Shown: positions 47,845 through 64,000 of the stretch, in pieces
How positions within the stretch are numbered: position 1 is the stretch's first letter
Layout: each line of letters opens with the position of its first letter
Source of the DNA: an uncultured Bacteroidales bacterium
GTDB taxonomy: Bacteria > Bacteroidota > Bacteroidia > Bacteroidales > Muribaculaceae
Assembly (NCBI GenBank): GCA_949285735.1
Contig: CASEAQ010000006.1
Location: forward strand, 1-64,000
Length of the DNA stretch: 64,000 nucleotides
Direction of reading: 5' to 3'
Program-made: the position numbers and the translations under genes
The notes under the pieces: model-generated
What the model saw: the letters and a program-made list of their open reading frames with translations, nothing else
What the model was told of the DNA's origin: nothing
The model's database searches: none

Positions 47845-49629
47845 TTATTCCATGCCATTTAAGGCAACTATTATAGGCATCGAAATACAGGAAAGATTTT
47901 CGATCTTCTGATGCAATTGCTTGTCAAAAGCGATTGCAAGAGCATGGTCAAGATTCTTCTTGTCTTTGAATGTTATATCTATATACAATCCTCGCTGTAG
48001 ATGCTTTTCGCCAGCCGCACCCTCAACAGCAATCCTATAAAATATGCGCTTAAATTCTTCTTTGCCAAACTCCAAGATGATTTCCTTTCGAATGAACGCT
48101 TCTATATCCTTACGAGTATATAAACGATCGTTGGTCAAAGTGTAATAACGCAACAATTCATAGCGAGAATCAGCACTGGCCTTATCGGTACCACCCACAG
48201 CCGACACAACAACAGCAACATCCTTCTCAAACAACGGCAGTTTCTTGTTCTCCATCATTTCACCCACACGGGGTGTATTTCCAATCTTGCCCAAAGTTGT
48301 CAGAAATGAAACTTTCGTAGATAATGTTGATGAATTTTGGTTCATGTTCTTCATCACATAAGTTCCGCTATCAAAGTTGAATTTGGCATTTTGCAGTCCT
48401 ACGCTTTTGCCAACCTTGTTAATTGCTTCACGTAACAGCTTTACCACCTCCCCATCTTTTATACCGTTGTATTCTATAAATGCATAATAGTCATCGATGA
48501 AATGGTTATACAAATTGCGAACATCTCTATACAAATCACCATTATTATAACATGATGCATCAAAATCACGAACTACAATATCTTCTGACAGCGATTCAAA
48601 ACCTTGCTTGAGCGAATTGCTACTTGTTTCAATTATTTGAAGGAAATATGAGTTATCCTGCTTTTGTAACTTGGCAATCGGAGCTGACGGCGTCAATGTA
48701 AGGCTGTTTTCATCAACGTTTACCACAGGAAACACATTGAGCACAACTGAGCAATCATCAGGAATCACATACCCGTCGGGAAACTCTACTTGCAACCATA
48801 TACTTTCATTCTTAAAACAATCAAGAGTCTCGCTTTCGAGCCAGTGCTGGAACACCCTTGGATAAATGCGAGGTTTGAATATATCACGATCAGAAATTGA
48901 ATCTGTAATATATACAAGAGTTCCATCATCAATACTCAGCAAATGATCCTTCCACCTATCAATCATAGAAAAAAACTTACCTGATGATTGCTGGGCATCA
49001 AACGGTTCCACCATTCTGATATTTTCCATATATGCCATTCCCGCAAACTCAAGAGACCTACTATCGGTTTCGACAGAAATACGCAACGGTGCAATACCAT
49101 TCGTTCCCCTTATCAAGATAGATACCCCATCCATACAGTTTATTTCTGCTTTAGTTTCAATTCCGACCCATAAAGCATTTTTTTTGCCCATATTTATGCT
49201 TTGGCTACCAGCATGGCAACTCAACCTTTGGGGAGTCAGTACATACAGACCCTGATAAGGAACAGCAAGAGTTCTAAACAACGGCACATAATTTATCGCT
49301 TGCCTTCCGCCTAACTTATAAGTGAACACAGCACCATTCCCTATTACGCCCACTTCCGACATTTTCTGTGATTTAAACCTCGGCGAGACCAGTGCTATTG
49401 CAGGAGTTGCAGAAATTTTTTCCACAGGAATGAACGCCTCGCAATACTTATCGATAATCTTATCTTCAAGCCCATCGACATAGTCTTGTATCTTTTGGCA
49501 CTCATGCAGCAGAGCCACAAGCATCATCTTTGCGACAGGATCGCCCAATTGAGTTCCATATTTGTTTGGAGATACACGCTTCAAATATTCAATTGATTCG
49601 TTAATCCTCTTTTCTATATCAATATCCAT
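47845..49629 (-). CDS. tssF: TssF-like baseplate protein
   Basis: This 594-residue protein has an N-terminus that follows the TssF plan: SIEYLKRVSPNKYG, then DPVAKMMLVALLHECQKIQD, YVDGLEDKIIDKYCEAFIPV and ATPAIALVSPRF, matching the conserved dP-LL-a-k-D-E-P-Pa-a pattern. TssF is a large wedge component of the T6SS baseplate. It follows the gp25/TssE-like gene by 2 bases. The C-terminal half (RYELLRYYTLTNDRLYTRKDI...) also fits a baseplate J-like fold. Bacteroidetes TssF proteins are diverged, so structural comparison would firm this up. Confidence 0.75.
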   Translation of the reverse strand: MDIDIEKRINESIEYLKRVSPNKYGTQLGDPVAKMMLVALLHECQKIQDYVDGLEDKIIDKYCEAFIPVEKISATPAIALVSPRFKSQKMSEVGVIGNGAVFTYKLGGRQAINYVPLFRTLAVPYQGLYVLTPQRLSCHAGSQSINMGKKNALWVGIETKAEINCMDGVSILIRGTNGIAPLRISVETDSRSLEFAGMAYMENIRMVEPFDAQQSSGKFFSMIDRWKDHLLSIDDGTLVYITDSISDRDIFKPRIYPRVFQHWLESETLDCFKNESIWLQVEFPDGYVIPDDCSVVLNVFPVVNVDENSLTLTPSAPIAKLQKQDNSYFLQIIETSSNSLKQGFESLSEDIVVRDFDASCYNNGDLYRDVRNLYNHFIDDYYAFIEYNGIKDGEVVKLLREAINKVGKSVGLQNAKFNFDSGTYVMKNMNQNSSTLSTKVSFLTTLGKIGNTPRVGEMMENKKLPLFEKDVAVVVSAVGGTDKASADSRYELLRYYTLTNDRLYTRKDIEAFIRKEIILEFGKEEFKRIFYRIAVEGAAGEKHLQRGLYIDITFKDKKNLDHALAIAFDKQLHQKIENLSCISMPIIVALNGME

Positions 49630-49631
49630 AT

Positions 49632-50141
49632 CTAAATATTTACTCTCTTGACTGTCGGCTCCATAAAGAACAACACACTTTTCTCATACGGTATGGCAGT
49701 ACCCAGATCGTCATCTAGCATTCCCACTACCTTGACAAAAATTTCATATTTGGACATTACATGTCGCCCCCCAATCCGAGCGGCATTAACGGGATTCAAT
49801 TCTATAGACACATCAATATGCTTTAACTGTGGCACATATGCCTCTATGCTTCTACAAATGCTTTCCTGACATTTTTTTTTCGTGGTGTCACTATACAACA
49901 AGTTACCATTCCTGCCAACCATCAAATTGCCTTTTCCAAAATCAAACGAATGGATATTTGAATACTCATGATTCCAATATTCAAATCCAAAATCGGGATC
50001 AGCATCAAAAGTGCCACGTGGCGTAAATACAATCAACTCCACAAGATTATCCAGTACTTTCACCAAATTTCCGACATTGCGTTTTACCGATATGTCATTT
50101 TCAGACACTCGGAACTCCAAAGGGGTATTTACATATTCCAT
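49632..50141 (-). CDS. tssE: gp25/TssE-like baseplate protein
   Basis: This 169-residue protein has a lysozyme-like gp25 fold signature: NVGNLVKVLDNLVELIVFTPRGTFDADPDFG, with later KKKCQESICRSIEAYVPQLKHIDVSIE. In phage T4 gp25 and TssE this core (including an EPR-type loop, here not exact) joins baseplate to sheath. Small size and position between TssK- and TssF-like genes agree. Confidence 0.8.
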   Translation of the reverse strand: MEYVNTPLEFRVSENDISVKRNVGNLVKVLDNLVELIVFTPRGTFDADPDFGFEYWNHEYSNIHSFDFGKGNLMVGRNGNLLYSDTTKKKCQESICRSIEAYVPQLKHIDVSIELNPVNAARIGGRHVMSKYEIFVKVVGMLDDDLGTAIPYEKSVLFFMEPTVKRVNI

Positions 50142-50150
50142 AACAGTTCC

Positions 50151-51128
50151 TTATATCTCACGCCCATTCCAACCTCGTCGCTTAGGTTGCGGTTGGGGAA
50201 GCTGCTCTATTTTGGGCTTCTCGGGTTGGACTGTTTTTATCTCGTTAAAAGCATCTATCTTGGTATTTATCGACTTACAGAGTCCTATTCCTTCTTTTAT
50301 TTTGTTCCATGCTTCTTTATAATTAAAAGGAGTACCAACAAAATTTTTGAACAATTCCGGCTCACCGAGGCTCAAATGCTCATCTAAAGCACAGGCACAC
50401 ACGAATGCGCTAACGCACTTTTGCACATTTCCCAAAAAAGACATCGGAGTCATAATGTCAACCTCCTTGTCAATCGTTATTGCCAACTGCTGAACAACAG
50501 GCCAAAACACCCCGATTGCCACCTTACAATCCGATTCTATACTCCGTTCCAATTTTTCGCTGATAGAATGCAATATACTTGCAAATTGTTTCAGTTGCTC
50601 TACATAATACTGATGGGCAGTGACATACAGGCATGGGGGGACAAAATCCACATCATCTACCCTCCAACCATATTCATTCACCAATCTTGCTATAGGCAAG
50701 GAATTATCTGGAAGCGGCAAGTTCTCTGGCACCAAGCTAAAAGTATAGACGGGTTCACAATAACCATCATTGGTATCATGCCACTCATCGTCCTTTGCTG
50801 TCACCACAAGAAGCAGTCGAGAAACATCAACGTCTGGAATAGCGACTCTCGTGTCAAACGTATTTGAATACAATGTGTCATACTCCAAGTCGATAAGTCG
50901 TCCACCCTTAGCTATTGCCAAGCAATCGATTGCCTCAACATCTACAAAATTTTTATTGGCACTCAACGAAATACAAAATTTTCGAGAAGGAGAAGGAAAT
51001 AACCCGAAACGTCCGGCAGCCGCAAGTTCAAATGCACTGTCAACGAAATGATACACACAAGCATCCGATGCTGTCAAAATTTCATCGGTGAGCCTCATGC
51101 CTTTTTTCCAAGAAATCCTTTTCGTCAT
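50151..51128 (-). CDS. tssK: TssK-like baseplate protein
   Basis: The protein has 325 residues, shorter than proteobacterial TssK (about 440). The opening ISWKKGMRLTDEILTASD matches the conserved W-GM-L-p-hf start. LPIARLVNEYGWRVDDVDFV followed by PPCLYVTAH matches the PIArl...v-D-fiPPcl- segment. TssK links the baseplate to the membrane complex. The C-terminal receptor-binding domain seems reduced and ends in a Pro/Lys/Arg-rich tail (QPEKPKIEQLPQPQPKRRGW), which may bind another partner. Confidence 0.75.
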   Translation of the reverse strand: MTKRISWKKGMRLTDEILTASDACVYHFVDSAFELAAAGRFGLFPSPSRKFCISLSANKNFVDVEAIDCLAIAKGGRLIDLEYDTLYSNTFDTRVAIPDVDVSRLLLVVTAKDDEWHDTNDGYCEPVYTFSLVPENLPLPDNSLPIARLVNEYGWRVDDVDFVPPCLYVTAHQYYVEQLKQFASILHSISEKLERSIESDCKVAIGVFWPVVQQLAITIDKEVDIMTPMSFLGNVQKCVSAFVCACALDEHLSLGEPELFKNFVGTPFNYKEAWNKIKEGIGLCKSINTKIDAFNEIKTVQPEKPKIEQLPQPQPKRRGWNGREI

Positions 51129-51134
51129 ATCAGT

Positions 51135-52028
51135 CTATAAATTTGTGTTATAATTTAAATAATTGTAGGTTATTGTGTCGGACAAACGGAGACAAGGCCC
51201 GTCACATTCTATATCAAAACGTATTGACTCCTCAATCGAAATGAAATAATCTTGTACAAAAAGCCGAAATACTTCCACTTCATTGACAAAGGAGAGAAAA
51301 TGCTCGTTACAATCATCATCCGGCCAATAACGGATAACATAAGTTATGACATTCTCGCAAAATTCATTCCCCACAAACACATCTGGCAATTTTCCGCCCT
51401 CGCCGTCGTCATAACGCGGATCTTCATCAACAAACCGACTACCATATACCCGTTTTTCGACAACTAAATCTTCGGCGAAAAATATTTTCCTCAGCATCAG
51501 TGTCAATAACGTTGAATCACCCCTGATGTCCTTACACTTAGGCAGAAATGGCATAGCCCTCTTTACAAACCTATTCTCTTTCTGCTCCACAGCCATATCA
51601 TCACCTAAGATGTCTTGAACAACCGCATTGTCGGCGGTAAGACTGTTTACCCTGTGTCGCACCTTGGCACGCATTCCAAGCAAAATAAGGTCATATGGTT
51701 CAAAAAACCGCCGGGCATCCTTCTGTTCTTGCTCTTGCTTTTGACACTCTTCGCCAAATCGTTCTTTCCATTCGCGTTCGGGGATATTATCAAACCGATT
51801 CACTGGATGGAACATAAACTCAGGTAGCATATCATACAGACCATTTCGACCTATATGCAACAACATTCGTCCATCAACAAGTTCTTCTTGCTCAATCACA
51901 TCATTATAGGCACTTCGCTTATGCACACCCTCGATAGACAATTTACAGGAATCTTCGGGCAAATAATGCAACAATTCTTCTACATTCAAATCACTCGGTA
52001 ACAAATGCAAGAACATATTATAAGTCAA
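51135..52028 (-). CDS. TssG-like baseplate protein (tentative)
   Basis: The protein has 297 residues. Central text DGRMLLHIGRNGLYDMLPEF followed by MFHPVNRF resembles the conserved L-rNG-yd-LPe-lFhp stretch of Bacteroidetes TssG. The acidic middle (QEQEQKDARRFFEPYDLIL) and a C-terminal beta-rich region complete it. Its place with tssK-, tssE- and tssF-like genes supports the call, since TssF2-TssG-TssK form the wedge. The evidence is short, so confidence is moderate. It overlaps the E1 gene by 11 bases. Confidence 0.55.
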   Translation of the reverse strand: MTYNMFLHLLPSDLNVEELLHYLPEDSCKLSIEGVHKRSAYNDVIEQEELVDGRMLLHIGRNGLYDMLPEFMFHPVNRFDNIPEREWKERFGEECQKQEQEQKDARRFFEPYDLILLGMRAKVRHRVNSLTADNAVVQDILGDDMAVEQKENRFVKRAMPFLPKCKDIRGDSTLLTLMLRKIFFAEDLVVEKRVYGSRFVDEDPRYDDGEGGKLPDVFVGNEFCENVITYVIRYWPDDDCNEHFLSFVNEVEVFRLFVQDYFISIEESIRFDIECDGPCLRLSDTITYNYLNYNTNL

Positions 52029-53235
52029 ATAGTGAACGGTCTTGCGATAGCTCTACATAAAACAATCCTTTATCGGTAGAAACCTGTATCACATCACACA
52101 ACGGAATTCCTACCTGCAACAAAGTCATATCCATATAAGGGAATTCATCATCGATATTTTCAATGAACACCTTATGGAAAAGCGTCCTGTAACTTAAACT
52201 GCGAATCTCATCGTTACTCTTGACAAAATCCTCCAATTTCGACTCTGGTACTCTGGCGAGAAATTCTTTTTCGGGAGTATCGGATATGATTTTGTCCACA
52301 AAACGATTATTGCACATGTTTATTTCAACAGCGTTCACTCCCAACACCTGCTTCAACGCCAAAAGCACATCACCTACCGAATGAGTAGCCGACAAGTTCC
52401 TACACTCTACAATATTGTTCCATATTGCATGGGCTGGACAAGAATGCTTCCATGATGAATACTTATATATATTCACTTTATTTGTCAATCCTTCATAACG
52501 AAGCATCTTTCCTTGAAGTGTAGTAAATGGAACTTCCCCGTTGTTTTCACCACAAACACCAAGATGTATCACCTTCATAGCTTCTTGCACCTGCATGGCT
52601 CCTATGATTGAAGCACTGATAGGTGTCGTCGCAACACGTCCAGCATTGCCCTGCACGCGCATTACATCGGCACAGCCTGTGCGGAGCATTATATAATTAA
52701 ATTCCTCTCGCGACAAGCCACACTCATAACAACTGATACCTGGCGTATAAACCCTCACCGCACCTGTCATGTTTTCAATGCTTCCATCAATCCACGTCTT
52801 TCCAGCCCTCATTGACAACCGATTCAGAAGATAACGCGCAATGCGGCTGTCAAGGCAACCTATCACCACATCGACAGAACGGTATATGCCAAAACCGACA
52901 TCGGCAGACAAGTCTCCAACTATTGGTGTGACTTTTATTTGCGGATTAATCTCCATTGCTCGTTTAGCAACCACATCGGCCTTATAAGAATGATTGAAGG
53001 CATCCTCCTCCCTAAACAGTACCGACCGCGTAAGGTTTGTTATCTCTATTTTATCAAAATCGACCACGTAAATATGCCCAACACCAAACAATGCCAAGTT
53101 CTTGACAACTTCATTTCCCAAAGCTCCAGCACCTGCCACAAGTACACGGGCATTTTTCACCGTATCTTTCTTGAACCATGAAAGCAACGTGAAAACACCT
53201 TCGCCCCATTCATAACTCTTTATATTGTCCTGCAT
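52018..53235 (-). CDS. E1-like ubiquitin-activating enzyme (ThiF/MoeB/E1 superfamily)
   Basis: This 405-residue protein activates a ubiquitin-like partner by adenylation. The nucleotide-binding Rossmann motif is VLVAGAGALGNEVVKNL (GxGxxG 35-40). VVDFDKIEITNLTR supplies the Asp and Asn/Arg of the E1 DxDxIExxNLxR motif. A Cys in the crossover region (RTGCADVMRVQGN, Cys188) is the candidate thioester Cys, before TTPISASIIGAMQVQEAMK. CYEC (169, 172) with HSCPAH (266) and Cys278 could bind zinc. The last 90 or so residues include MTLLQVGIPLCDVIQV, similar to the end of the nearby ubiquitin-like protein, so a ubiquitin-fold domain is possible. Overlap with the TssG-like gene ties it to the machine. 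Confidence 0.93.
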   Translation of the reverse strand: MQDNIKSYEWGEGVFTLLSWFKKDTVKNARVLVAGAGALGNEVVKNLALFGVGHIYVVDFDKIEITNLTRSVLFREEDAFNHSYKADVVAKRAMEINPQIKVTPIVGDLSADVGFGIYRSVDVVIGCLDSRIARYLLNRLSMRAGKTWIDGSIENMTGAVRVYTPGISCYECGLSREEFNYIMLRTGCADVMRVQGNAGRVATTPISASIIGAMQVQEAMKVIHLGVCGENNGEVPFTTLQGKMLRYEGLTNKVNIYKYSSWKHSCPAHAIWNNIVECRNLSATHSVGDVLLALKQVLGVNAVEINMCNNRFVDKIISDTPEKEFLARVPESKLEDFVKSNDEIRSLSYRTLFHKVFIENIDDEFPYMDMTLLQVGIPLCDVIQVSTDKGLFYVELSQDRSLFDL

Positions 53236-53282
53236 GTTCCTGAATAATCTTTTTCGTTAAAATTCTACCACACACGTCGCAA

Positions 53283-55703
53283 CTAATTTGTTTCGACATA
53301 TTGAAAAATGGTATCGCCAATCTTGAACATATCACCATTGGATAGAACCGTAAGTCCACTTACAGGCAATTCCACACGAGAATTGAAAATAACACCTCTT
53401 GCCATAGGTTTAAGCACAGGCAGATGCTTACCATGGTCTATGAATAGTTGAGCATGTTCTTTTGCAACCTTGTTGCTCTTTTCCCAGTTCATTTGTATCT
53501 CACAATCGCGGGTCATGCCTATCGACACCTTATTGCCTCCCCCCGTAGCATTCATCCATTTGTGGATAGGAATGCGCGTTCCTGCTTTTACGCCATTTTG
53601 GATATCAAGAAAATACTTCTCGGCAATCATTCTCACCGTTACCAGCGAGACACCAAGCCCGCCACCGTATATGACAAAATTTAGCAACATTGAAACCCAA
53701 CCATTCTGGTCGCTCATCTGACTTGTACAATAAAGCACCACAAAACCAATCAAAGCCGAACATACACCTCCCATCATTGCACTTTTTACTGGAATTGTTG
53801 ACTTTATAGTCAACGCCAACGAAACGCAAATAGAGAACATCAAGTAGCCAGGCAATGAACAATACCATGGAATATAGGTAGTGCCAATTACCGACAACAA
53901 CAGACACAATATACTTGCTCCGATAGCAAATGATGCCATTCCTATAATACCTGTCAACAACGAAAGAAGAAATATCTTAACATAGACTTTCATATCCTTT
54001 TTTCGATATTCATCATTATAACGGAATATAAACGACAAAAAGAACCCCAAAAGAAGTCCTATGGTGAGGAAAGCCGATGTCTTGCTTGCACAATCGGGTA
54101 TGAGACTGCCTTGTTGCCCATCAGCCGACAAAAACAAGCCAACCATTCTATACGCAAGCGAGTCGAATATCCCTTGTCCGCATAATTCATATATAACCCA
54201 GCTGACAAAACCAGCCATGATTCCAGAAATTGATTGGTAACAATCTCTAAATGATTTCAATGAAAGCAATTCGCTCCAATCTACATGTTCCTGAATGCCC
54301 GTATTGCAGTTTTGACCATATTCACTGCATTTATATCCATTCTGCTGCCAACAATGAACGTGCATAACGTGGTTGCATTTCTTAACCACATATTCTCCTG
54401 GCAGAATATCTTGACAACAATAATGGCATATGCGACGCTTCACATTGTGCTCTGGAACATATTTCTTGTAATATCTCCACTCAAACTCCTTCGACTTCCA
54501 AAATGGCACCGCCACCTTAGCTGCAAAGAAAAACAGAACTATCACCAACAATGTCACCAGCACAGCATAGAACAACTTCAACAAAGTATCTGCGGCACCT
54601 TCAGCCCTTATTGGCCAAGGGCGTTCTGCAGTACCTATCGAATATTCTCCCTTCCCACACATCTTGCCATTCCACAAAGCCGAATATGTGACAGTCTTTG
54701 AGTACACTTTCGACTCGGGCACACGATAAGTGAACGAGAAGTCATAAGACGCATCATCAACCACCTCCCTGAACCCCCGCAGCACTTCGCCAATGTTGCC
54801 AGAAGGCAAATAACGTCCTTTCCTGTCTGCCAATGTCCTGCCAGCAACATCCTTAGGCTCGCACACGCCTTTCAATGTCATCTCAATATCAGGATCTTCC
54901 CCGTGCTCAGTGTAATACAAAGCAGTAACCTTTGGAACTACGTGAGACAACACGCTCTGGTAATCGGTAACTTCAACAAACGAAATAGCCTCATCATCGG
55001 GTCGGCTCGTTCCTTCTGTGAATATTATCAATATATTCTTGTCGCGATTCGATACAGCCCTTTGAGCTATTTCAGGAACCTTGAGATAGCCCATTTGCAC
55101 TTTAGCAGAATCCTCATACTCACCTTTGACAGAACTGAACTCAGTGAGTTTGGCATACAATGCACTATAAAACACCTTGCCATCGGAATGCGTAAGGAAT
55201 TTCTCCCTCATCCCGCGGTAATTCTCTTTAGTCACCACCACGCTTGGAGACACTTCTTCGCCAAAGAATGACAAATAAACACAACTATCTGGAGCATTCT
55301 CCACAAGCTGATATATAGCTCCATATATCTGCTCTTTCCCTTGCACTGGTATGCTTAAATCAACCAGCACTGAAAAAGTGTAACTCGCAGGAATGCGCTG
55401 CTTATAGCTTACCGCCTCTATTGTAACTCTATCTTGAGGTATGGTAAAATTATCTTCTTCCATCGTAAGGCTATTGCGTATATCCTCGATTGAGGCATTT
55501 TTAACACGGTTGCCATAGGAATCAAGCACATTGAAAAACAACGAAATACTATCCTTCCCTGCTTTATATTCATACTTGCGGTCACAAAATTGTATTTCGG
55601 CTACTGCATCTGCTGGCAACTGCGAATATAAGGTCTGCCCAAATCCAAAGGCAAAAACCATCATCAGCAAAACCCTCTCGATTAACGTTTTCGACGTGTC
55701 CAT
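53283..55703 (-). CDS. Membrane protein joining VWA-like, RING-H2-like and FHA regions
   Basis: This 806-residue protein has an N-terminal signal or membrane segment, then residues about 85-330, a von Willebrand A-like domain outside (YTFSVLVDLSIPVQGKEQIY; the MIDAS is incomplete). A membrane helix at about 374-398 leads to a Cys/His cluster at 425-466: C-x2-C-x13-C-x-H-x2-H-x2-C-x7-C-x6-C, close to a RING-H2 finger. About six membrane helices follow (490-693). The C-terminus (about 724-806) is an FHA domain (VSIGMTRDCEI, KEHAQLFIDH, LSNGDMFKIGDTIF). It may be the E3 and phosphothreonine reader of the locus. The start at 55703 overlaps the JAMM gene by 22 bases. Confidence 0.75.
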   Translation of the reverse strand: MDTSKTLIERVLLMMVFAFGFGQTLYSQLPADAVAEIQFCDRKYEYKAGKDSISLFFNVLDSYGNRVKNASIEDIRNSLTMEEDNFTIPQDRVTIEAVSYKQRIPASYTFSVLVDLSIPVQGKEQIYGAIYQLVENAPDSCVYLSFFGEEVSPSVVVTKENYRGMREKFLTHSDGKVFYSALYAKLTEFSSVKGEYEDSAKVQMGYLKVPEIAQRAVSNRDKNILIIFTEGTSRPDDEAISFVEVTDYQSVLSHVVPKVTALYYTEHGEDPDIEMTLKGVCEPKDVAGRTLADRKGRYLPSGNIGEVLRGFREVVDDASYDFSFTYRVPESKVYSKTVTYSALWNGKMCGKGEYSIGTAERPWPIRAEGAADTLLKLFYAVLVTLLVIVLFFFAAKVAVPFWKSKEFEWRYYKKYVPEHNVKRRICHYCCQDILPGEYVVKKCNHVMHVHCWQQNGYKCSEYGQNCNTGIQEHVDWSELLSLKSFRDCYQSISGIMAGFVSWVIYELCGQGIFDSLAYRMVGLFLSADGQQGSLIPDCASKTSAFLTIGLLLGFFLSFIFRYNDEYRKKDMKVYVKIFLLSLLTGIIGMASFAIGASILCLLLSVIGTTYIPWYCSLPGYLMFSICVSLALTIKSTIPVKSAMMGGVCSALIGFVVLYCTSQMSDQNGWVSMLLNFVIYGGGLGVSLVTVRMIAEKYFLDIQNGVKAGTRIPIHKWMNATGGGNKVSIGMTRDCEIQMNWEKSNKVAKEHAQLFIDHGKHLPVLKPMARGVIFNSRVELPVSGLTVLSNGDMFKIGDTIFQYVETN

Positions 55704-57496
55704 ATTTTTAAATTTTCCAATTTTTCTTCTCCGTAATATTTTTCGTCCACACACAAGTTGTCGTTATTAAGCGGTATAGCAGTGAGCATCCCATCAGAAG
55801 TGCTATAGAACAACACGAATTTAAAACCCACGTAATTGGCAATATACTTGCGTATCGTTGGTATACTGCAATGCGTTCCTATCAAGAAACCTCCAATCAA
55901 GTCATTGTCGGGCATTGAATCTGTTTTGGATATAGCATTGACGACATATTCTGTTTTTCCCATATTCCTATATGCGAAACCATACGCCCGACCAACGAGA
56001 CCCGTCTCCATTCCCATTGTCAACGACCCCATATCAATAATCGAGCCGTTGCTCAACTCCACACCATAGCAACTTGCAAGACGATTCTCGGCATTGCCAA
56101 GTATGTTATAATGGTCTTCTGGCTTAAACGAATAACGGTCGCTCTCGACCGCCCATTTATAAAGCTCCTCGAGCGAATACATTTTCTTCAAATCGCCTTT
56201 AGAATTTATCGACATATCGTGCCTGAAAGTAAAAATCCCCATTTCTTGTTGGGGGGTCAGTATATCTATCACGATAGCCGTCAAGAACTTGGGATGTGTA
56301 GGATGTTTCAATTGCATTTGCACATTGCTGTCCGAATTGCTAAAAAACACTCCCAAACCTGGGTGAGAATGCACCCAGCATGTCAAATCATACTGCAAAT
56401 CTGACTCTCGCCGCAATTTTCGCAACATTTCAGCAACCTTCAATTTTATCTTGCCACCGAAATTAAGTTCATACTCCTGGAACACAGCATCGTCGCCCGG
56501 ACGCACGATGTGTTCGAGTGAAACATAATACTCGTCGCTCTGGTCATCATAAACCCATCGACCAAGAACCATACAGCCATCCTCCTTCGGATTCCCTGGA
56601 TTACGCAAATCTTCGGCATACATATTATAAATATCCTTGACACAGGTATTCTTTATATAAATACGCCTAACTGCCGAATCGTCACAAAATTCAGCACACT
56701 CTATTTGCATATAATTTTTGTCATCAACCACATCTTCAAGACTTTGCCGTTTCAATATCGAAGTAGTCTTACGCCGCACAACAATCGCAGGCTCTCCTGC
56801 AGACAATCGCCCGTCGCCTTGCAACACCAATTGCTTGCGCTTCTTTCTGCCCCTTTGGGCGTACACCATCCACACAATAAGCAATATCAATACTACAACG
56901 ATTATACATATATTGATAATGCCTATATTATCGAGTTTACTAAAATCCCACGCACTTTTGGTTGAAACCTGCTCCATTGCGAGACCAAGACCATTAAGGT
57001 ATTTTTCCCTCTCGACAACACGGCTATCCAACAAAGCCTTCATTTGATCGTAATACAAGTCTGAATAGGCTACCCCATACCTGCTGCCCATATAGTCCAA
57101 ATACTCTGTCACAATAATATGGTTGCCTATTTGCTTGTAGTAAGTAGTGGTATCAAGCTCATTCTTCAAGAACTCGTTCAAATGCCTGTCGGCTATATAA
57201 GACTCCTTGTCCGACCAATTGCGCAAGCATTCTATATGGACATCAATTTGAGACTTAAACAACCGCATTGAACTTTCTGAAAAATATCCAGATGCTTCTA
57301 CGCCACTCTTGAAAGCATCCATTATTACATCAGCGTCAATTTTTGCCTTTTCTGGAAGTCTTGGCTTCTGCAACCCCACTACATAACCCTCAGAATACAC
57401 CGCATCTTGTATGTAGTCACCGTACTGTGCATGCATGGCAATATTTCCCATCAGGCACAGAAACAACAAACACATCCTTGTTGAAAATTTCATCAT
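55682..57496 (-). CDS. Membrane-anchored JAMM/MPN metallopeptidase (deubiquitinase-like)
   Basis: This 604-residue protein has a signal peptide (residues 1-23), a helical outer domain (about 24-185), one membrane helix (about 192-213) and a cytoplasmic JAMM domain. The zinc motif is HSHPGLGVFFSNSD, giving H376, H378 and D389 (H-x-H-x10-D), with E305 in KEDGCMVLGRWV as the likely catalytic Glu. A further 150-residue region follows (GGFLIGTHCSIPTIRKYI), perhaps a second, inactive MPN-like unit. Such peptidases cleave isopeptide bonds to ubiquitin-like proteins. It lies in the same operon as the UBL, E2 and E1 genes. Confidence 0.9.
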   Translation of the reverse strand: MMKFSTRMCLLFLCLMGNIAMHAQYGDYIQDAVYSEGYVVGLQKPRLPEKAKIDADVIMDAFKSGVEASGYFSESSMRLFKSQIDVHIECLRNWSDKESYIADRHLNEFLKNELDTTTYYKQIGNHIIVTEYLDYMGSRYGVAYSDLYYDQMKALLDSRVVEREKYLNGLGLAMEQVSTKSAWDFSKLDNIGIINICIIVVVLILLIVWMVYAQRGRKKRKQLVLQGDGRLSAGEPAIVVRRKTTSILKRQSLEDVVDDKNYMQIECAEFCDDSAVRRIYIKNTCVKDIYNMYAEDLRNPGNPKEDGCMVLGRWVYDDQSDEYYVSLEHIVRPGDDAVFQEYELNFGGKIKLKVAEMLRKLRRESDLQYDLTCWVHSHPGLGVFFSNSDSNVQMQLKHPTHPKFLTAIVIDILTPQQEMGIFTFRHDMSINSKGDLKKMYSLEELYKWAVESDRYSFKPEDHYNILGNAENRLASCYGVELSNGSIIDMGSLTMGMETGLVGRAYGFAYRNMGKTEYVVNAISKTDSMPDNDLIGGFLIGTHCSIPTIRKYIANYVGFKFVLFYSTSDGMLTAIPLNNDNLCVDEKYYGEEKLENLKIWTRRKR

Positions 57497-57502
57497 AATT
57501 GT

Positions 57503-58678
57503 TCAAATTGAAAATCGCCCATTAGGTTTATTTCCCAAACGGCTTACTCTTTTTTTAACCATATTTTTACCATCATTCATGGCTTGGCGTGTCTTGTCAT
57601 GTGCGTAATCTCGAACTTGCCGCCTGGCCTCATGCTCAGCTTTCTGTGCTAACGATTGTTGCATCTCCATCATATTCTTTTGATTTTTCAGATTACGAAA
57701 ATGTTGCAACATTTGGTTGCCAGCGACACATACCACAGCCAACGCCACACCGCCTATTATCAACCACATATTACGCTTCTTTTCTTCGGCCGCCTGTTGC
57801 TGTGCTACGGTTTGTATTGAATCTTGTCTGGCAAGAGCTTGCTGTTGAGCAATTTCAGCTTTGCGAGCAGCTTGCGCCTGAGCCAAAGAAGCTGCCTCCG
57901 AAGAAGCATTTTCAAGCTCGCTTTTTTTGATCTCACACATGGTCAGCGTTTCTTTGATTTTTGTCAGCAACTCTTTGTCGTTCACCTTATCTTGTATCAA
58001 TCTAAGCCTCGTGATTTCATACTGAAGCCCGTCTGAAAACGGCAACCTATCCTGCACCTCAAGCAGTGCCGATACAGTACCGATACTCGTAAGTATCTCA
58101 GTCGTGACATCATTGTCGCCTTCAGTCTCGATTGTGGACGTAATTGCCTGTACTGAAACCTTTTCAGACAGCTTATCTTTCTCAATCTTATCAACACGCA
58201 CACTGAAACCACGACTCACAGACAGCAATTTATATTTCTCCTTTCCTTCATAATGTGCTATATATATTGGTATGTCCCAATTTATCTCGGTATCACCAAC
58301 AACTGTAAACGACATCGACGGGTTATCGTTACCCTGTATTATAAAATATCCATCGTCCGACTTATCATATTCGACAGAAGACGGTATCATGAATGCCTCA
58401 GGAACCATGTCTGTAAACTCGGCATTATGGTAATTTCCCGTTCTGTCAAAAAATATTACAACCAACTCGTCGAGTTTTTTGTATTTCTTTCCATTAATCC
58501 GTCCGAGTCTTTTCTGCACATTCTTAAACACAACATTCACCTTATAACCTTCCCTAACAACAGAATACGTTATAATCAACCTGTCACGACTATTGGTCAT
58601 TACTGTATCCTTCATTTCTCGTGGATACACCGACAAATGGCACAATACAAGAATCGCAGTAATAAACACATTTCTCAT
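57503..58678 (-). CDS. Membrane protein with periplasmic beta domain and coiled coil
   Basis: This 391-residue protein has a signal peptide (MRNVFITAILVLCHLSVYP). Residues about 25-175 look like a beta-sandwich containing IPIYIAHYEGKEKYKLL. A helical region with an Ala/Gln-rich coiled coil (about 260-300; AQAQAARKAEIAQQQALARQ) leads to a membrane helix (about 304-322) and a basic tail rich in Lys/Arg. It shares the PIYIA-Y-K-K segment and general layout with the neighbour at 58758, so the two are probably diverged paralogues. No family was recognised. A T6SS membrane-complex part such as TssN or TssO is possible but unsupported. Confidence 0.65.
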   Translation of the reverse strand: MRNVFITAILVLCHLSVYPREMKDTVMTNSRDRLIITYSVVREGYKVNVVFKNVQKRLGRINGKKYKKLDELVVIFFDRTGNYHNAEFTDMVPEAFMIPSSVEYDKSDDGYFIIQGNDNPSMSFTVVGDTEINWDIPIYIAHYEGKEKYKLLSVSRGFSVRVDKIEKDKLSEKVSVQAITSTIETEGDNDVTTEILTSIGTVSALLEVQDRLPFSDGLQYEITRLRLIQDKVNDKELLTKIKETLTMCEIKKSELENASSEAASLAQAQAARKAEIAQQQALARQDSIQTVAQQQAAEEKKRNMWLIIGGVALAVVCVAGNQMLQHFRNLKNQKNMMEMQQSLAQKAEHEARRQVRDYAHDKTRQAMNDGKNMVKKRVSRLGNKPNGRFSI

Positions 58679-58757
58679 AAAAGTCTATAAACCAAAATGG
58701 TGCTACATAATTATTGCCTATACTCGAAATCCAAAGCGTCTGCACACTGCATACAAG

Positions 58758-59831
58758 TCAAAAATCATTTATGCGATTGTACCTGTCGGTGATTTTCGAC
58801 TTGTATTCACTCTTGCTCCATTGACGACTGTGGCTCCGGCAACGTTTATCGACGCAACAATTGTACAACGCTTTCACATCACCAATCACCTGTTCTTTGA
58901 CAGCACTGCGATCGCTACTGCTGTATATGCGTTGATAGTAGTCATCAAGTTTATGATATATCTGTTGCAACGACAAATTGCAATAACGGCATCTATGTGT
59001 ATAATACACCTTGTGCTTTCCGCAATCCCCCTCTTTCTCATCGAGGTTGATTTGCTTGAGCTCTTGTTTTAATCCTTCACACAATTTGTACATTTTGTGT
59101 GTTGGCATCCAACCGTTCTGTTTGATCATCTCGTTGATTCGTTCCGTATATGCCTCTATACGGTCGAGATATACCTTTCGCTGCATATACAGTGATGGTT
59201 TATGCTTTTTATTGGTACAGAACATAACCCCATCAAGTTCCGAAAGCAAGGCTGCACAACTATCGGCAAGTTCTTGATAGGCAGCATTTGGCCTGATTTC
59301 AACATCAATATTCAACTCCACAACTTGCTTTTCAAGCATCACAAGTTGCTCTTTCTTTATAAAAATAAACTTCTTCTTAGTTTGATACTGAGCGATATAT
59401 ATAGGCAATCGGCACACCGCAGTTTTACCCTCCTCGACCGACAAAGACAAAACCATTTCCTTGTATGAAGGTGATATATGGAAATTCTGTTCAATCCCTT
59501 CACACGCCTCAATAGTACGATGCCCCTTGCTGCCTCCGAAAATATCATCATAAACTATGGGGGGCTGCATTTCCTTCAATGTCGATTCATCATAGCCACG
59601 ATCAAACAACAACAGCTCATTGGTTTCACCTGTGTTCTCCATTGCCACCGAAACGGTCACCTTGCCATATTGGTCAACATTCTCAATTTCAAGGAATATA
59701 TTACAATATGACAACTCCACCATTGCTTGTTTATCATCGGTGTTCAATTTCACATCTTTCTGCTCGTCACCATAAGCCGTCGCCATCGAAGCAACAAGCA
59801 ATAAAACCATCAAATATACCTTGCGTATCAT
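58758..59831 (-). CDS. Secreted Cys-rich protein of unknown function, related to 57503 neighbour
   Basis: This 357-residue protein has a signal peptide (MIRKVYLMVLLLVASMATAYG). An N-terminal beta domain has ELLLFDRGYDES and LPIYIAQYQTKKKFIFI, the second stretch matching the neighbour at 57503. The C-terminal third is helical and Cys/His-rich (CGKHKVYYTHRCRYC, then YNCCVDKRCRSHSRQ), and could bind metal or form disulfides. It lies between the E2 and the paralogue. Its position suggests a part of the injection machine or the conjugation system; the role is unknown. Confidence 0.6.
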   Translation of the reverse strand: MIRKVYLMVLLLVASMATAYGDEQKDVKLNTDDKQAMVELSYCNIFLEIENVDQYGKVTVSVAMENTGETNELLLFDRGYDESTLKEMQPPIVYDDIFGGSKGHRTIEACEGIEQNFHISPSYKEMVLSLSVEEGKTAVCRLPIYIAQYQTKKKFIFIKKEQLVMLEKQVVELNIDVEIRPNAAYQELADSCAALLSELDGVMFCTNKKHKPSLYMQRKVYLDRIEAYTERINEMIKQNGWMPTHKMYKLCEGLKQELKQINLDEKEGDCGKHKVYYTHRCRYCNLSLQQIYHKLDDYYQRIYSSSDRSAVKEQVIGDVKALYNCCVDKRCRSHSRQWSKSEYKSKITDRYNRINDF

Positions 59832-60505
59832 ATAGTCCTCGGCTTTATAGTTGTTTTTTGTTCTTGTACAGCATTTTCTCCAATCATTGTTGCTTTAGGT
59901 GCTGAAACTGCAGGTTCTGGAATATCTTGTCCAAAACGCGTCCATCCATTCGGTTCTCCTTCCTCTCTCACCCACTCTGCCACATTCTGGTCTTCGGGAT
60001 AAGGATAAGTGTTCTGAGCATGGTAAAGCTGATACTTGAGATAGCGTTCGACCCTCAATATCAAGTCCTTTAACGAGGCAAGAACACCCATCTCCTTAAT
60101 GGTTAGACATACATGACCTTTAAAACTTCCAGAATATCTGATATTGGGATGCCAAACATCTGTGCGGAATGTAAAAATGGGATTCCCGTCGGCCGACGGG
60201 TAATTGTTTGGCAAAACAATACTCATTTTATGCAAATAGCCAAATATAGGTTCACGCGGTATAGGCGAATCTTTAACGCCCACTATCGACTTGACCCTGT
60301 ACCATACCTCATACTCAGTAGGAAGCCCCATGACATTTCTCCTGCGTATAATATAAGAAATCGACGGTTCCCGAGGATTAGCACTTGCAGCCCTGCGCTT
60401 GGCACACAGCGAGTCTATTTCTTTCCACTCTTTCCACAAACGGGCGTCCCTGCCCGAAAGCTCTTTTTGATTGAAATTATTTATTACACTGCTTATCTCT
60501 GCCAT
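59828..60505 (-). CDS. E2-like ubiquitin-conjugating enzyme (UBC fold)
   Basis: This 225-residue protein has the UBC core at about residues 15-165. The hallmark HPN (119-121, in DVWHPNIRYSG) is followed by the predicted catalytic Cys133 in GHVCLTIKEMG, 12 residues after the Asn, in E2 spacing. The preceding IVLPNNYPSADGNPIFTF matches the E2 beta-sheet with the conserved Y-P...P-F. The last 55 residues are a low-complexity tail. The ATG at 60505 is chosen; a TTG 33 bases upstream would overlap the UBL gene. E2s receive UBL from E1 and pass it to targets, often with a RING E3. Confidence 0.92.
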   Translation of the reverse strand: MAEISSVINNFNQKELSGRDARLWKEWKEIDSLCAKRRAASANPREPSISYIIRRRNVMGLPTEYEVWYRVKSIVGVKDSPIPREPIFGYLHKMSIVLPNNYPSADGNPIFTFRTDVWHPNIRYSGSFKGHVCLTIKEMGVLASLKDLILRVERYLKYQLYHAQNTYPYPEDQNVAEWVREEGEPNGWTRFGQDIPEPAVSAPKATMIGENAVQEQKTTIKPRTI

Positions 60506-60527
60506 CGTAGTAATCGTTTTTTGTTCA

Positions 60528-60854
60528 TCAACCAGCAATAGGAACCGAAATCAAGTGCAACAAATCTCCAGGCTGTATGTTGTAGTCAACCAACGCCTGT
60601 TCGCGCCCATCAGCATCTTCAAACTCAAGTATCTCGGGCTCCGCCCCTTCCTCTATCGTCTGCCCAAGCAAGTATTGTATGGGGTTGCCGCCATTGTCAA
60701 CCTTTGGCAGTTCAAACACCTGCACAATACTGCTTATCTGGTCACGTATAGTCTTATTAGGGTCAGTAACCTTTACCTCAACTTCCTCATAAGCCGAGCC
60801 GTCAATTGTTAATCTAATGATGAAATCATCACCATAAAGTTCTTCGTTTGCCAT
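60528..60854 (-). CDS. Ubiquitin-like protein (UBL), beta-grasp
   Basis: This 108-residue protein reads as a ubiquitin-fold protein: FIIRLTIDGSAYEEVEVKV as the first hairpin, DPNKTIRDQISSIVQVFEL as the helix, GGNPIQYLLGQTIEEG, then QPGDLLHLISVPIAG. It ends in Ala-Gly with the Gly as the last residue, so it needs no processing to expose a C-terminal Gly. The usual Gly-Gly is absent. The E2 begins 22 bases after its stop. YukD-like secretion UBLs are not conjugated, but E1, E2 and JAMM genes in the operon argue for conjugation here. Confidence 0.82.
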   Translation of the reverse strand: MANEELYGDDFIIRLTIDGSAYEEVEVKVTDPNKTIRDQISSIVQVFELPKVDNGGNPIQYLLGQTIEEGAEPEILEFEDADGREQALVDYNIQPGDLLHLISVPIAG

Positions 60855-60912: not shown

Positions 60913-61416
60913 CTACCATATCCACGCTCCGCGTGGCTGGTCGTAATTATCCGAACGGTAATCTTCAAACTTGTTTTTGAAAACTATGATTTGATAGGCG
61001 TCCTCCGGAATACGCAAAGGCTCTTTCAATCCATAGCGGTAAAGCGACAACTCATACTTGCGGTGCTCATAGTCGATATGTATCAATAAGTCGGCGTTAG
61101 TATCTCGGTGGGCTCCGTAGAAGCGGTCATACACAGCACAGATGAGATTTTCATCAAACCATAAATGGGCAGTATATTCCGATTTATTCACATGCCATGC
61201 CAATGTCATTTTTTTAGGTTTTCCTGCTGTATGATATTTGAGCAAGCTGCCATCGCGCAACTTGTCGTGGGTGCCGTCATAAAGAGCCTCCTCTATATAA
61301 TCCAACTCTGGTATACAGCCACGTTCGGTTAGTTTCTCCCACTTTCCATCGCTCCAACGCTCAAAAATAGGCAAATAACGATAGCAAAATTGCTGCACAC
61401 GCTTATTATCCATCAC
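60913..61416 (-). CDS. Small protein, candidate immunity partner of the upstream pretoxin-like gene
   Basis: This 167-residue protein has no signal peptide and no recognised domain. Aromatic-rich text (FCYRYLPIFERWSDGKWEKL, YRYGLKEPLRIPEDAYQIIVF) suggests a compact alpha/beta fold. It overlaps the preceding gene's stop by ATGA, the usual toxin-immunity coupling. An unrelated accessory role is possible. Confidence 0.55.
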   Translation of the reverse strand: MMDNKRVQQFCYRYLPIFERWSDGKWEKLTERGCIPELDYIEEALYDGTHDKLRDGSLLKYHTAGKPKKMTLAWHVNKSEYTAHLWFDENLICAVYDRFYGAHRDTNADLLIHIDYEHRKYELSLYRYGLKEPLRIPEDAYQIIVFKNKFEDYRSDNYDQPRGAWIW

Positions 61417-62863: not shown

Positions 62864-63190
62864 TTAAGGAAGGGTCGAATACTTTATTGCACCATAAAAT
62901 ATGTCGGTCAGGCACTTATACACTTCATCATTTTCATCAAAATTATTTACGGCAATTGCGCCCAATGAGTATGCTTTATTTATTTCATCCCACTCCGTAT
63001 ATACTTGCAACCTTATCACATTTTCCTCTATATCCGCCAATTGCTCATAAATAAACAAATATATCGAATTATGTGTCTTTTCTGCTAAAAATCTGAATTT
63101 GCCTTTTGCCTCTTCCAAGAACAACCTGTAATTGAGCTTTGTCGCGTGGTTCAAGAAACAACTGTGTTTACTTTTTTCTTCCATAATCAT
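62864..63190 (-). CDS. Small protein, candidate immunity partner of the DUF4280-toxin gene
   Basis: This 108-residue protein has no recognised family. It starts by TAATG overlap with the stop of the DUF4280 gene, a hallmark of tight co-translation. Acidic and aromatic content (EWDEINKAYSLGAI, NNFDENDEVYKCLTDIF) fits a soluble cytoplasmic protein. Immunity to the upstream C-terminal domain is inferred from position. Confidence 0.5.
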   Translation of the reverse strand: MIMEEKSKHSCFLNHATKLNYRLFLEEAKGKFRFLAEKTHNSIYLFIYEQLADIEENVIRLQVYTEWDEINKAYSLGAIAVNNFDENDEVYKCLTDIFYGAIKYSTLP

Positions 63191-64000
63191 TACAACACAT
63201 TTAGATATTTCAAGAACTCACATGGGATATATGCTTGTATTGCACCGCCCTTTGTTTTTTTCCAATTTGCACAATCTAATTTCAAACTATCCCATTTATT
63301 ATTCAATGGAGCCATAGTATCGGCAGCTGTACTTTCCAAATATTCAAATTCGGGGGCTGCATCATCAACTTCATAAATGACCTTCCGTTTCCTCACAACA
63401 TTTCCATTACCCTTGTCGATTACTGGCTGGGCTCCATAATTACGAGGAACATTGATAGGTTCATTTTCTCTACGAGGGAATCCAAAATATGACCCCTGCA
63501 ATATATCATTAGGACCTTCGAACCTTTGGAAGCGATTACCTGGCGATGCCACTCTCACTTTCACAGGCTTATCCAAATCTATACCATTTATGTGACTCAT
63601 TATCTTTTTTTCGTCGGTCACACCATGGCTAACATAAAAACGATAAGCAAAGTTCTTCCTTTCTGCCCGCAAAGCCTTAATAAAAATTTCCACCTCCTCA
63701 TCGTTCTTACAAATACCTTTCGACAATAGCTCCTTTCTCGAAATATTTTCTCCGGCATATTTTTTTACAACTTCAGCAAACTTTGTTTTAGATGCTGAGT
63801 CGATAATACGCTTCAGGTTCTCTTCTGTCTCCCTTGCCATTCGAGAATTATCGCCAGGACCGGTATCAGTTTGTCCGTCACTAACTATTGTTATGACTCC
63901 ACCATATTGGCACCTGCATATCGACGACTTTAGCAACGCAGGCTTTCCCTTCACCAAGTAATCATTTTTGCCATTCAGCCATTCGGAGACTGTGCCAGGC
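63190..64000 (-). CDS. PAAR-like DUF4280 protein with polymorphic-toxin-like C-terminus (N-terminus off window)
   Basis: The frame is open to the right edge, so only the last 269 residues are seen. The first visible part (PGTVSEWLNGKNDY, KGKPALLKSSICRCQYGGVI, TIVSDGQ) is the end of a DUF4280 domain, a PAAR-like spike tip common in Bacteroidetes T6SS. The remainder carries YVSHGVTDEKKIMSHINGID, KPVKVRVASPGNRFQRFEG, QGSYFGFP and LESTAADTMAPLNNKW...KGGAIQAYIP. It resembles the type 46 polymorphic toxin domain as I recall it. This would make it an evolved effector on the spike. A TTG at 63957 is not a real start. Confidence 0.7.
   Translation of the reverse strand, partial: PGTVSEWLNGKNDYLVKGKPALLKSSICRCQYGGVITIVSDGQTDTGPGDNSRMARETEENLKRIIDSASKTKFAEVVKKYAGENISRKELLSKGICKNDEEVEIFIKALRAERKNFAYRFYVSHGVTDEKKIMSHINGIDLDKPVKVRVASPGNRFQRFEGPNDILQGSYFGFPRRENEPINVPRNYGAQPVIDKGNGNVVRKRKVIYEVDDAAPEFEYLESTAADTMAPLNNKWDSLKLDCANWKKTKGGAIQAYIPCEFLKYLNVL

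Follow-up and report, generated by a model that had tools for sequence, protein, structure and literature searches.

A run of reverse-strand genes in the first 64 kb of the contig CASEAQ010000006.1 joins a ubiquitin-type conjugation cassette to a type VI secretion system (T6SS). This 64,000-nucleotide stretch, here called the window, is the start of a 78.6-kb contig in a draft genome (2.6 Mb, 79.8% complete) of an uncultured Muribaculaceae bacterium. The cassette encodes a ubiquitin-like modifier (UBL), an E2 conjugating enzyme, two proteins without a Pfam match above cut-off (U357 and U391), a JAMM protease, a RING protein and an E1 enzyme. Together with T6SS genes it forms one conserved same-strand gene run, and cassette and T6SS co-vary in sequence. 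We think it probable, with some reserve, that the cassette is a membrane-anchored, reversible ubiquitin-like switch of a T6SS lacking TssN, licensing assembly or firing of the machine.

A ubiquitin-type cassette within a T6SS locus

The initial annotation, made from the window's letters, described the ubiquitin-type set and Tss-like genes as one reverse-strand run. The run is real and larger than described, also holding ClpV, TssB, TssC, Hcp and VgrG. It forms a low-GC island, with every gene on the reverse strand, that extends from 41.6 kb in the window to about 8.8 kb beyond its end. GC content is 40.7–42.6% in the island and 51% (0.512) to the left of 41.5 kb, where chromosomal genes stand. 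The gene order begins with a NusG-like antiterminator, ClpV, TssB, TssC, two Hcp genes, VgrG and a small gene, and continues with a DUF4280-Ntox46 effector, a Tsi6-like protein, two unknown genes, UBL, E2, U357 and U391. JAMM, a VWA-RING-FHA gene, E1, a TssG-like gene, TssK, TssE and a TssF-like gene follow, and the run closes with a peptidoglycan-binding protein, a LysM glucosaminidase, a Ser/Thr kinase, a WG protein and a PP2C phosphatase. The sheath, tube and spike genes lie beyond the window end, outside the view of the initial annotation. The cassette and baseplate genes are as follows.

60528..60854, reverse strand: UBL, ubiquitin-like modifier of 108 aa with C-terminus PIAG, from sequence and a fold model
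59828..60538, reverse strand: E2 conjugating enzyme, HPN at 130–132 and Cys144, from a profile and invariant residues; likely start an ATG near 60505
58758..59831, reverse strand: U357, cassette member of unknown fold with a signal-like, hydrophobic N-terminus (64/65 loci)
57503..58678, reverse strand: U391, cassette member with a signal-like N-terminus (by eye) and one transmembrane (TM) helix at about 302–325 (62/63 loci)
55682..57496, reverse strand: JAMM protease with a signal-like N-terminus (by eye), TM helix 185–217 and a JAMM domain at about 300–450 predicted to be cytoplasmic; residues E305, H376, H378 and D389; gene present at 61/61 loci
53283..55754, reverse strand: RING protein with a VWA-like region predicted to be periplasmic, a TM helix, the RING, more TM helices and a C-terminal FHA-like domain; RING ligands C443, C446, C460, H462, H465, C468, C476 and C483; likely start 55703 (60/60 loci)
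52018..53235, reverse strand: E1, one ThiF-type adenylation domain and a C-terminal extension, with C169, C172, C188, C266 and H269 (59/59 loci)
51135..52028, reverse strand: TssG-like baseplate protein (tentative), TTG start, from position, conservation (57/58 loci) and weak fold matches
50151..51128, reverse strand: TssK baseplate protein (Pfam T6SS_VasE, 2.7e-5)
49632..50141, reverse strand: TssE-like (gp25) baseplate protein (Pfam 0.11 in the window; relatives 1.2e-9 and 8.9e-9)
47845..49629, reverse strand: TssF-like baseplate protein (homologue in 33/34 cassette genomes; weak TssF match in the distant relative L070)

An alignment of E2 scanned against one genome per species gave 76 pattern matches, 68 of them confirmed, which resolve into 65 distinct loci in 65 genomes. 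The carriers include Prevotella/Prevotellaceae, Muribaculaceae, Bacteroidaceae, Bacteroides, Porphyromonadaceae, Barnesiella, Xylanibacter and Palleniella, together with Cryptobacteroides, Tidjanibacter and Physcousia (all Bacteroidales) and others placed only as Bacteroidales or Bacteroidia. Downstream order was read at loci with enough sequence, by phmmer on all same-strand open reading frames of at least 60 aa. On the 3′ side of E2 stand U357 (64/65), U391 (62/63), JAMM (61/61), RING (60/60), E1 (59/59) and the TssG-like gene (57/58); the exceptions are locus L019, for U391 and TssG-like, and locus L057, for U357. At 47 of 60 loci the JAMM gene overlaps the RING gene. A protein search at an E value of 0.001 in a set of 5.8 billion proteins returned 511 matches to E2 and 1155 to the JAMM protein.

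The initial annotation named conserved synteny as support and genomes without sheath or tube genes as refutation, and both checks came out mostly in its favour. At least one T6SS gene lies within about 10 kb of E2 at 63 of the 65 loci, the other two being L040, on a 6.7-kb contig, and L019. TssC is present in 57 of the 65 cassette genomes; it was missed in G718, G725, G733, G736, G737, G742, G743 and G745, and in at least two of these eight the contig that bears the cassette (L040, L048) is about 7 kb long. TssF, searched in 34 hand-chosen genomes of the 65, was found in 33, the exception being the genome of L019. Chance or misassembly can be dismissed, because the same order recurs in loci of 65 separate genomes.

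The catalytic positions of the putative enzymes do not vary. Component alignments took open frames scoring at least 40 bits and 0.6–1.6 times the length of the window protein, which leaves truncated copies out of the residue counts. The E2 HPN motif and candidate catalytic cysteine, and the intact JAMM H-x-H-x10-D motif, both pointed out in the initial annotation, hold throughout: H130, P131, N132 and C144 are invariant in 66/66 E2 rows, and E305, H376, H378 and D389 in 62/62 JAMM rows. The same is true of the eight RING ligands (61/61 rows) and of C169, C172, C188, C266 and H269 in E1 (60/60 rows). We take C188 to be the candidate catalytic cysteine of E1, from its position compared with ThiF, so that E1, with its ThiF domain, and E2 both appear to carry the residues needed for catalysis. 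Profile matches of E2 and RING extend to E2s and E3s of eukaryotes, the RING matching RNF165/ARK2C at 4e-4; Prok-RING_1 matches RING relatives at 0.003–0.005, below cut-off. Most aligned E2s (59828–60538 in the window) continue after a variable linker into a short hydrophobic tail (KSLTI, PRTI), perhaps a docking motif.

The UBL is modelled with a ubiquitin fold, matching the Caldiarchaeum ubiquitin 6fno_D at an E value of 9e-5, and its C-terminal glycine is conserved. It ends in IAG in 63 of 65 rows. A non-IAG row in these counts is a second UBL copy at locus L012, which also has an IAG copy; another row has the tail PIAG-GSKK, and in the fold alignment the L070 row lacks its C-terminus. The second L012 copy (L012:8097-8477) is diverged and lies upstream of the normal one. 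Short tails follow the conserved glycine in one family UBL and in two UBLs of distant relatives. The UBL alignment contains no invariant lysine for chain formation.

Hydropathy places a hydrophobic stretch at the N-terminus of U357, one TM helix in U391, one in JAMM (185–217) and one at about 390–420 in the RING protein, between its VWA-like part and the RING, followed by several more; signal-like N-termini in U391, JAMM and the RING protein were judged by eye. From this we infer that the VWA-like region lies outside and the RING and JAMM domains inside. The VWA family scores above cut-off in the RING proteins of the relatives L071 and L073.

The machine has the parts that define a T6SS: the sheath proteins TssB and TssC, the tube protein Hcp, the spike protein VgrG and ClpV. 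Matches are strong for TssC (4.6e-133, PF17541) and the two Hcp proteins (1.3e-34 and 8.4e-30), and VgrG domains and ClpB-type AAA domains are present; the TssB match is weak (0.0012, below cut-off), yet the gene lies at the expected place. Among baseplate proteins, TssK is above cut-off in the window and TssE in relatives, and TssF gives a weak match. For the TssG-like protein a fold search yields weak matches and family models none; a sequence search against the Protein Data Bank (PDB) found nothing for it and one irrelevant match (0.63) for the TssF-like protein. U357 and U391 have no Pfam match above cut-off; no family search was aimed at TssO, TssP or TssQ. NCBIfam matches to U391 are also below cut-off (best 0.003).

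Cassette and machine co-vary. Pairwise identities correlate between TssC and RING (r = 0.87, n = 24), E1 (0.84, n = 24), JAMM (0.76) and E2 (0.62), and between the TssG-like protein and RING (0.88, n = 58) and E1 (0.87). E2 does not follow VgrG: here r is 0.14 and is reached in 14 of 500 shuffles, against 0 of 500 for the other pairs. Effector loading, one role offered in the initial annotation, was therefore dropped, since the cassette follows the sheath and TssG-like proteins (0.62–0.88) and not the spike. Median identity to the window is 71% for E2 and E1, 77% for TssC and 46% for the TssG-like protein and TssK.

Neighbouring genes and island history

The remaining genes of the run lie on either side of the cassette and baseplate genes.

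46858..47832, reverse strand: peptidoglycan-binding protein with a TM stretch (Pfam PG_binding_1, 1.8e-9)
45879..46877, reverse strand: glucosaminidase with LysM (18/20 downstream stretches)
44335..45807, reverse strand: Ser/Thr protein kinase with a TM helix (Pfam Pkinase, 1.8e-42; kinase match in 18/20 downstream stretches)
42481..44277, reverse strand: WG-repeat protein with a signal-like N-terminus (14/20 downstream stretches)
41612..42478, reverse strand: PP2C-type phosphatase (Pfam PP2C, 7.6e-10; 14/20 downstream stretches)
60913..61416, reverse strand: U167, small gene just upstream of UBL, without a Pfam match (40/65 loci)
62864..63190, reverse strand: Tsi6-like immunity protein (Pfam Tsi6, 3.2e-4, below cut-off)
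63190..64000, reverse strand: C-terminal portion of the DUF4280 (PAAR-like)-Ntox46 effector, continuing past the window end (L004:3-573; Ntox46 4.4e-5, just below cut-off)
contig 64589-72756 (L004), reverse strand: VgrG, two Hcp, TssC, TssB, ClpV and the NusG-like gene

The downstream counts come from 20 of the 33 TssF genomes, one of whose stretches (L099) is only 2.2 kb long. On the 3′ side of TssF the LysM gene and a kinase were each found in 18 stretches and the WG and PP2C genes in 14; the kinase profile is a single sequence and may also match unrelated kinases. The effector and its Tsi6-like neighbour (62864–64000 in the window and L004:3-573) form an ordinary T6SS cargo region. The NusG/KOW-domain gene that heads the island (L004:8052-8756) may encode an antiterminator dedicated to this long operon.

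E2 occurs in 6 of 118 relatives, the window's own genome counted, and in none of 8 others of the same genus. The island is probably acquired horizontally, because its presence is patchy and its GC content low.

TssN, distant relatives and the proposed switch

In the TssN–TssQ–TssO–TssP–TssR membrane complex, TssN is an inner-membrane hub that has a ubiquitin-like domain and contacts TssK, and TssR contains a VWA domain, as described in the part of PMC10781749 used here. TssN (PF17555) is above cut-off in none of the 65 cassette genomes; six have matches below it, at E values of 3e-5 to 2e-4. It is likewise above cut-off in none of the four cassette genomes of the order sample described below (G000, G046, G178 and G242, the last recognized by JAMM and RING only), and is found above cut-off in 6 of the 11 order genomes with TssC and without a JAMM match. 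A canonical type iii T6SS with its TssN elsewhere in the genome was considered and set aside, no TssN reaching the cut-off. TssR (PF17643) was found in one of the 65 cassette genomes (that of L039, 42 bits) and in none of the four order-sample ones, the window's own among them; the TssR model appears insensitive, because it matches only 3 of the 11 TssC-positive comparison genomes. Four cassette genomes (G716, G728, G734 and G747) encode two TssC proteins, the second at about 40% identity and perhaps part of a second T6SS; in these too no TssN is above cut-off.

Two wider samples, each including the window's own genome, extend the comparison: 295 genomes of the order and 395 of the phylum. In the order sample JAMM relatives occur in 5 genomes, TssC in 15 and both in 4, one of which is the window's own. 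JAMM is thus found in 4/15 genomes with TssC and 1/280 without it (Fisher 2e-5, or 3e-4 excluding the own genome, with relatedness ignored). Of the other three genomes with both, two (L070 and L071) keep the order VgrG-UBL-E2-JAMM-RING-E1-TssG-TssK-TssE-TssF at about 30% identity, with other genes interspersed, and the third is represented by a short contig (L072) that bears JAMM and RING. The fifth JAMM genome, G016, is without TssC.

In the switch that we favour, E1 would activate the UBL at its C-terminal glycine, and the UBL would then pass to Cys144 of E2, as the invariant residues suggest. The RING, predicted to be cytoplasmic, would act as ligase and place tagging at the envelope, which the VWA-like region of the same protein may sense. 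The membrane-bound JAMM would trim UBL precursors, remove the tag and reset the switch. The target would most likely be a part of the baseplate or membrane complex, since TssN, the inner-membrane hub that touches TssK and contains a ubiquitin-like domain, is lacking in the cassette genomes. Tagging might then license docking or firing of the machine, the direction of control being conjectural. Lysines invariant in cassette systems and different in the cassette-free genome G258 (TssK K8 and K9; TssC K38, K46 and K50; Hcp1 K43 and K117) were considered as pointers to the target, and these candidates are too many and too weak to name it. The kinase and phosphatase of the same run might conceivably gate the switch. 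This gating step is weakened by the FHA-like domain: in its 61 rows no arginine follows the conserved glycine in any, and serine is not a common residue at the motif, positions that presumably make the phosphothreonine contacts.

A more specific form of the proposal, which we put forward tentatively and with less confidence, is that of a distinct kind of T6SS whose cascade replaces the TssN hub. Instead of being fused into a membrane protein, the modifier would be conjugated on demand to a baseplate or membrane part by an envelope-sensing RING ligase, which would dock the tail, and the membrane JAMM would cut it off to release the tail. If so, this would be the first secretion machine in bacteria to be driven by ubiquitin-type conjugation, and in other Bacteroidota the same sensor–ligase module would drive other outputs, such as the nSTAND NTPase with an ion channel or the Srf genes.

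Besides the altered FHA-like domain, several observations weigh against a conjugation switch dedicated to the T6SS. The UBL has a single terminal glycine rather than a pair. Patterns taken from close relatives guided the scan for loci, which makes the 65 loci a non-random sample, and the pairwise-identity correlations ignore species relatedness. The names TssF and TssG are tentative, resting on weak matches. In the phylum sample E2 is found in 4 genomes (one weakly, E 6.5e-4) and TssC in 25, with both only in the window's own genome, so that none of the three E2 matches outside it (the weak one among them) falls in a TssC genome. The closest sheath, at 57% identity, belongs to G258 (L082, L103, L104; G258:C1), which has neither cassette nor TssN; G239 (which has TssR), G247, G270 and G273 also lack TssN. 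Because the G258 T6SS has neither, the cassette is not the sole alternative to TssN, and a wider TssN-less class of Bacteroidales T6SS appears to exist, one branch of which carries the cassette. In G258 an M23 peptidase gene separates the effector region from TssG, and FHA proteins, a PP2C match and kinase matches occur in the vicinity.

Copies without a T6SS bear on the same question. In L019 (9670-18335), from a Muribaculaceae metagenome-assembled genome, UBL-E2-U357-JAMM-RING-E1 form a run next to FHA and WG genes, and an alkaline phosphatase gene on the opposite strand comes after it; this 2.0-Mb draft genome has no TssC or TssF match. In G016 (L073, L074; G016:C685) the module adjoins SrfB, SrfC (Virul_Fac), subtilase, TerB, transglutaminase-like and papain-like genes. 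In G358 (L079, L081) and G452 (L080) an E1-UBL-E2-JAMM-RING module adjoins an nSTAND1 NTPase, with an ion-transport (ion channel) gene also at the G358 module. None of these last three genomes has a TssC match. Homologues apart from baseplate genes thus do exist, in the close relative L019 and in the distant relatives G016, G358 and G452, although 63 of the 65 loci hold T6SS genes. The close family has the module nearly always within a T6SS, whereas among distant relatives it can belong to other operons, and because of these T6SS-free copies we regard it as portable rather than an obligate T6SS part. G016 has a second JAMM gene (L074:6939-7790). The arrangement in G358 and G452 resembles a conflict system; the two UBLs differ only by a two-residue C-terminal tail.

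These copies keep alive the main rival explanation, which we consider rather unlikely: that the cassette, a membrane sensor combined with ubiquitin-like tagging, serves envelope stress or conflict on its own, merely accompanies T6SS islands and has its targets elsewhere in the cell. Its patchy presence (E2 in 6/118, 0/8 in the same genus) and low GC (0.407 against 0.512) are likewise those of an acquired island. Against this explanation, T6SS genes lie within about 10 kb at 63/65 loci. At loci where both flanks are visible, the cassette mostly has effector genes on one side and baseplate genes on the other, its genes overlapping or closely spaced. It keeps the same position at about 30% identity in other families, and it co-varies with the sheath and TssG-like proteins. 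A purely structural role without conjugation seems improbable; here the missing membrane complex would be built from the UBL together with the membrane proteins, the UBL would replace the ubiquitin-like domain of TssN, and E1, E2 and JAMM would be vestigial or act elsewhere. E2 and E1 (71%) are far more conserved than the TssG-like protein and TssK (46%) and come near TssC (77%), and vestigial enzymes are disfavoured because the catalytic positions never vary.

Tagging by ubiquitin-like proteins is often tied to turnover, and a ClpV-type AAA protein is encoded in the same locus. The tag might thus mark T6SS parts or effectors for turnover by ClpV or another unfoldase instead of licensing assembly, an explanation to which we give very little weight. 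ClpV is accounted for by sheath recycling, as in other T6SSs; no proteasome-like gene was seen among the locus genes scanned; and the UBL has no invariant lysine for chains. The reversible switch remains the reading that we prefer.

Known systems and significance

The bare enzyme set may already be listed among the prokaryotic ubiquitin-type/RING gene neighbourhoods that Burroughs reportedly described in 2011. The initial annotation had set the genes apart from the defence-linked Bil and Cap2/Cap3 sets, and the comparison agrees: PADLOC defence models and NCBIfam models recognize E1 alone, in its adenylation part, and the full set is conserved within the T6SS locus. A defence system of Bil or CBASS type was rejected, the defence models matching nothing beyond that part. 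Cap2/Cap3 of CBASS share E1–E2 chemistry and JAMM removal with the cassette. CBASS has an E1–E2 fusion, whereas here E1 and E2 are separate genes, accompanied by genes for a UBL and a RING protein; the PADLOC E1–E2 models match only the E1 adenylation part, and no CD-NTase was seen among the locus genes scanned.

The Bil operons (BilABCD) likewise have separate UBL, E2, JAMM and E1 genes in one operon. Two ubiquitin domains characterize their BilA, a C-E-H-H motif their BilB and two adenylation domains their BilD, and the operons act in phage defence, according to the part of PMC11354881 compared. By contrast, the 108-aa UBL here has one domain, the E2 a eukaryote-like HPN and cysteine and the E1 one adenylation domain, alongside a RING protein, membrane anchors and T6SS neighbours. 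The prokaryotic E1/E2/JAB/Ubl neighbourhoods of Iyer 2006 (PMC1779556) comprise the same enzyme classes, predicted from gene neighbourhoods; in the text compared they have no T6SS association, and ‘secretion’ occurs once, in a reference. The Caldiarchaeum-type archaeal system also has E1, E2, a small RING and ubiquitin (PMC5654768, in part), with an Rpn11 homologue named in PDB titles; here RING and JAMM are predicted to be membrane-bound, and lie inside a secretion locus.

Type iii T6SSs of Bacteroidota (GA1–GA3), as far as the parts of PMC4714493 and PMC10781749 compared describe them, share the Bacteroidota-family TssC, TssD/Hcp, VgrG, ClpV, TssK, TssE and Bacteroidales hosts with the present locus. 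The locus differs in having no TssN above cut-off, so that the TssN-containing membrane complex of type iii was not found, and in carrying the ubiquitin-type cassette and kinase and phosphatase genes in the run. In the same parts, ‘ubiquitin’ and ‘kinase’ have 0 occurrences in PMC4714493, and PMC10781749 uses ‘ubiquitin’ only for the fold of TssN/EccD. Here the FHA-like domain forms part of the RING protein by fusion, and the presumed phosphothreonine contacts are absent from it. This sets it apart from the proteobacterial T6SS threonine phosphorylation pathway (PpkA, PppA, Fha), which also combines kinase, phosphatase and an FHA-like domain (PMC5995506 and PMC3953482, both in part). Among the matches listed from the open-access literature, with preprints and most subscription papers outside its scope, no paper links a T6SS or contractile injection with ubiquitin-type conjugation.

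Bacterial ubiquitin-like operons in the papers compared serve phage defence or have an unknown role; the present one stands in the locus of a contractile weapon. Conserved synteny ties it to the T6SS, and it has an E2 with a eukaryote-like HPN as well as a membrane RING. Three carriers, Xylanibacter muris PMUR, Palleniella intestinalis PINT and Barnesiella sp. An22, are probably cultured gut commensals, as they are strain-named. If our reading is correct, reversible tagging of the ubiquitin type would govern T6SS assembly, and the anchoring of TssN-less Bacteroidota T6SSs becomes directly testable. The cassette also offers a simple bacterial model of an E1–E2–RING–JAMM cascade.

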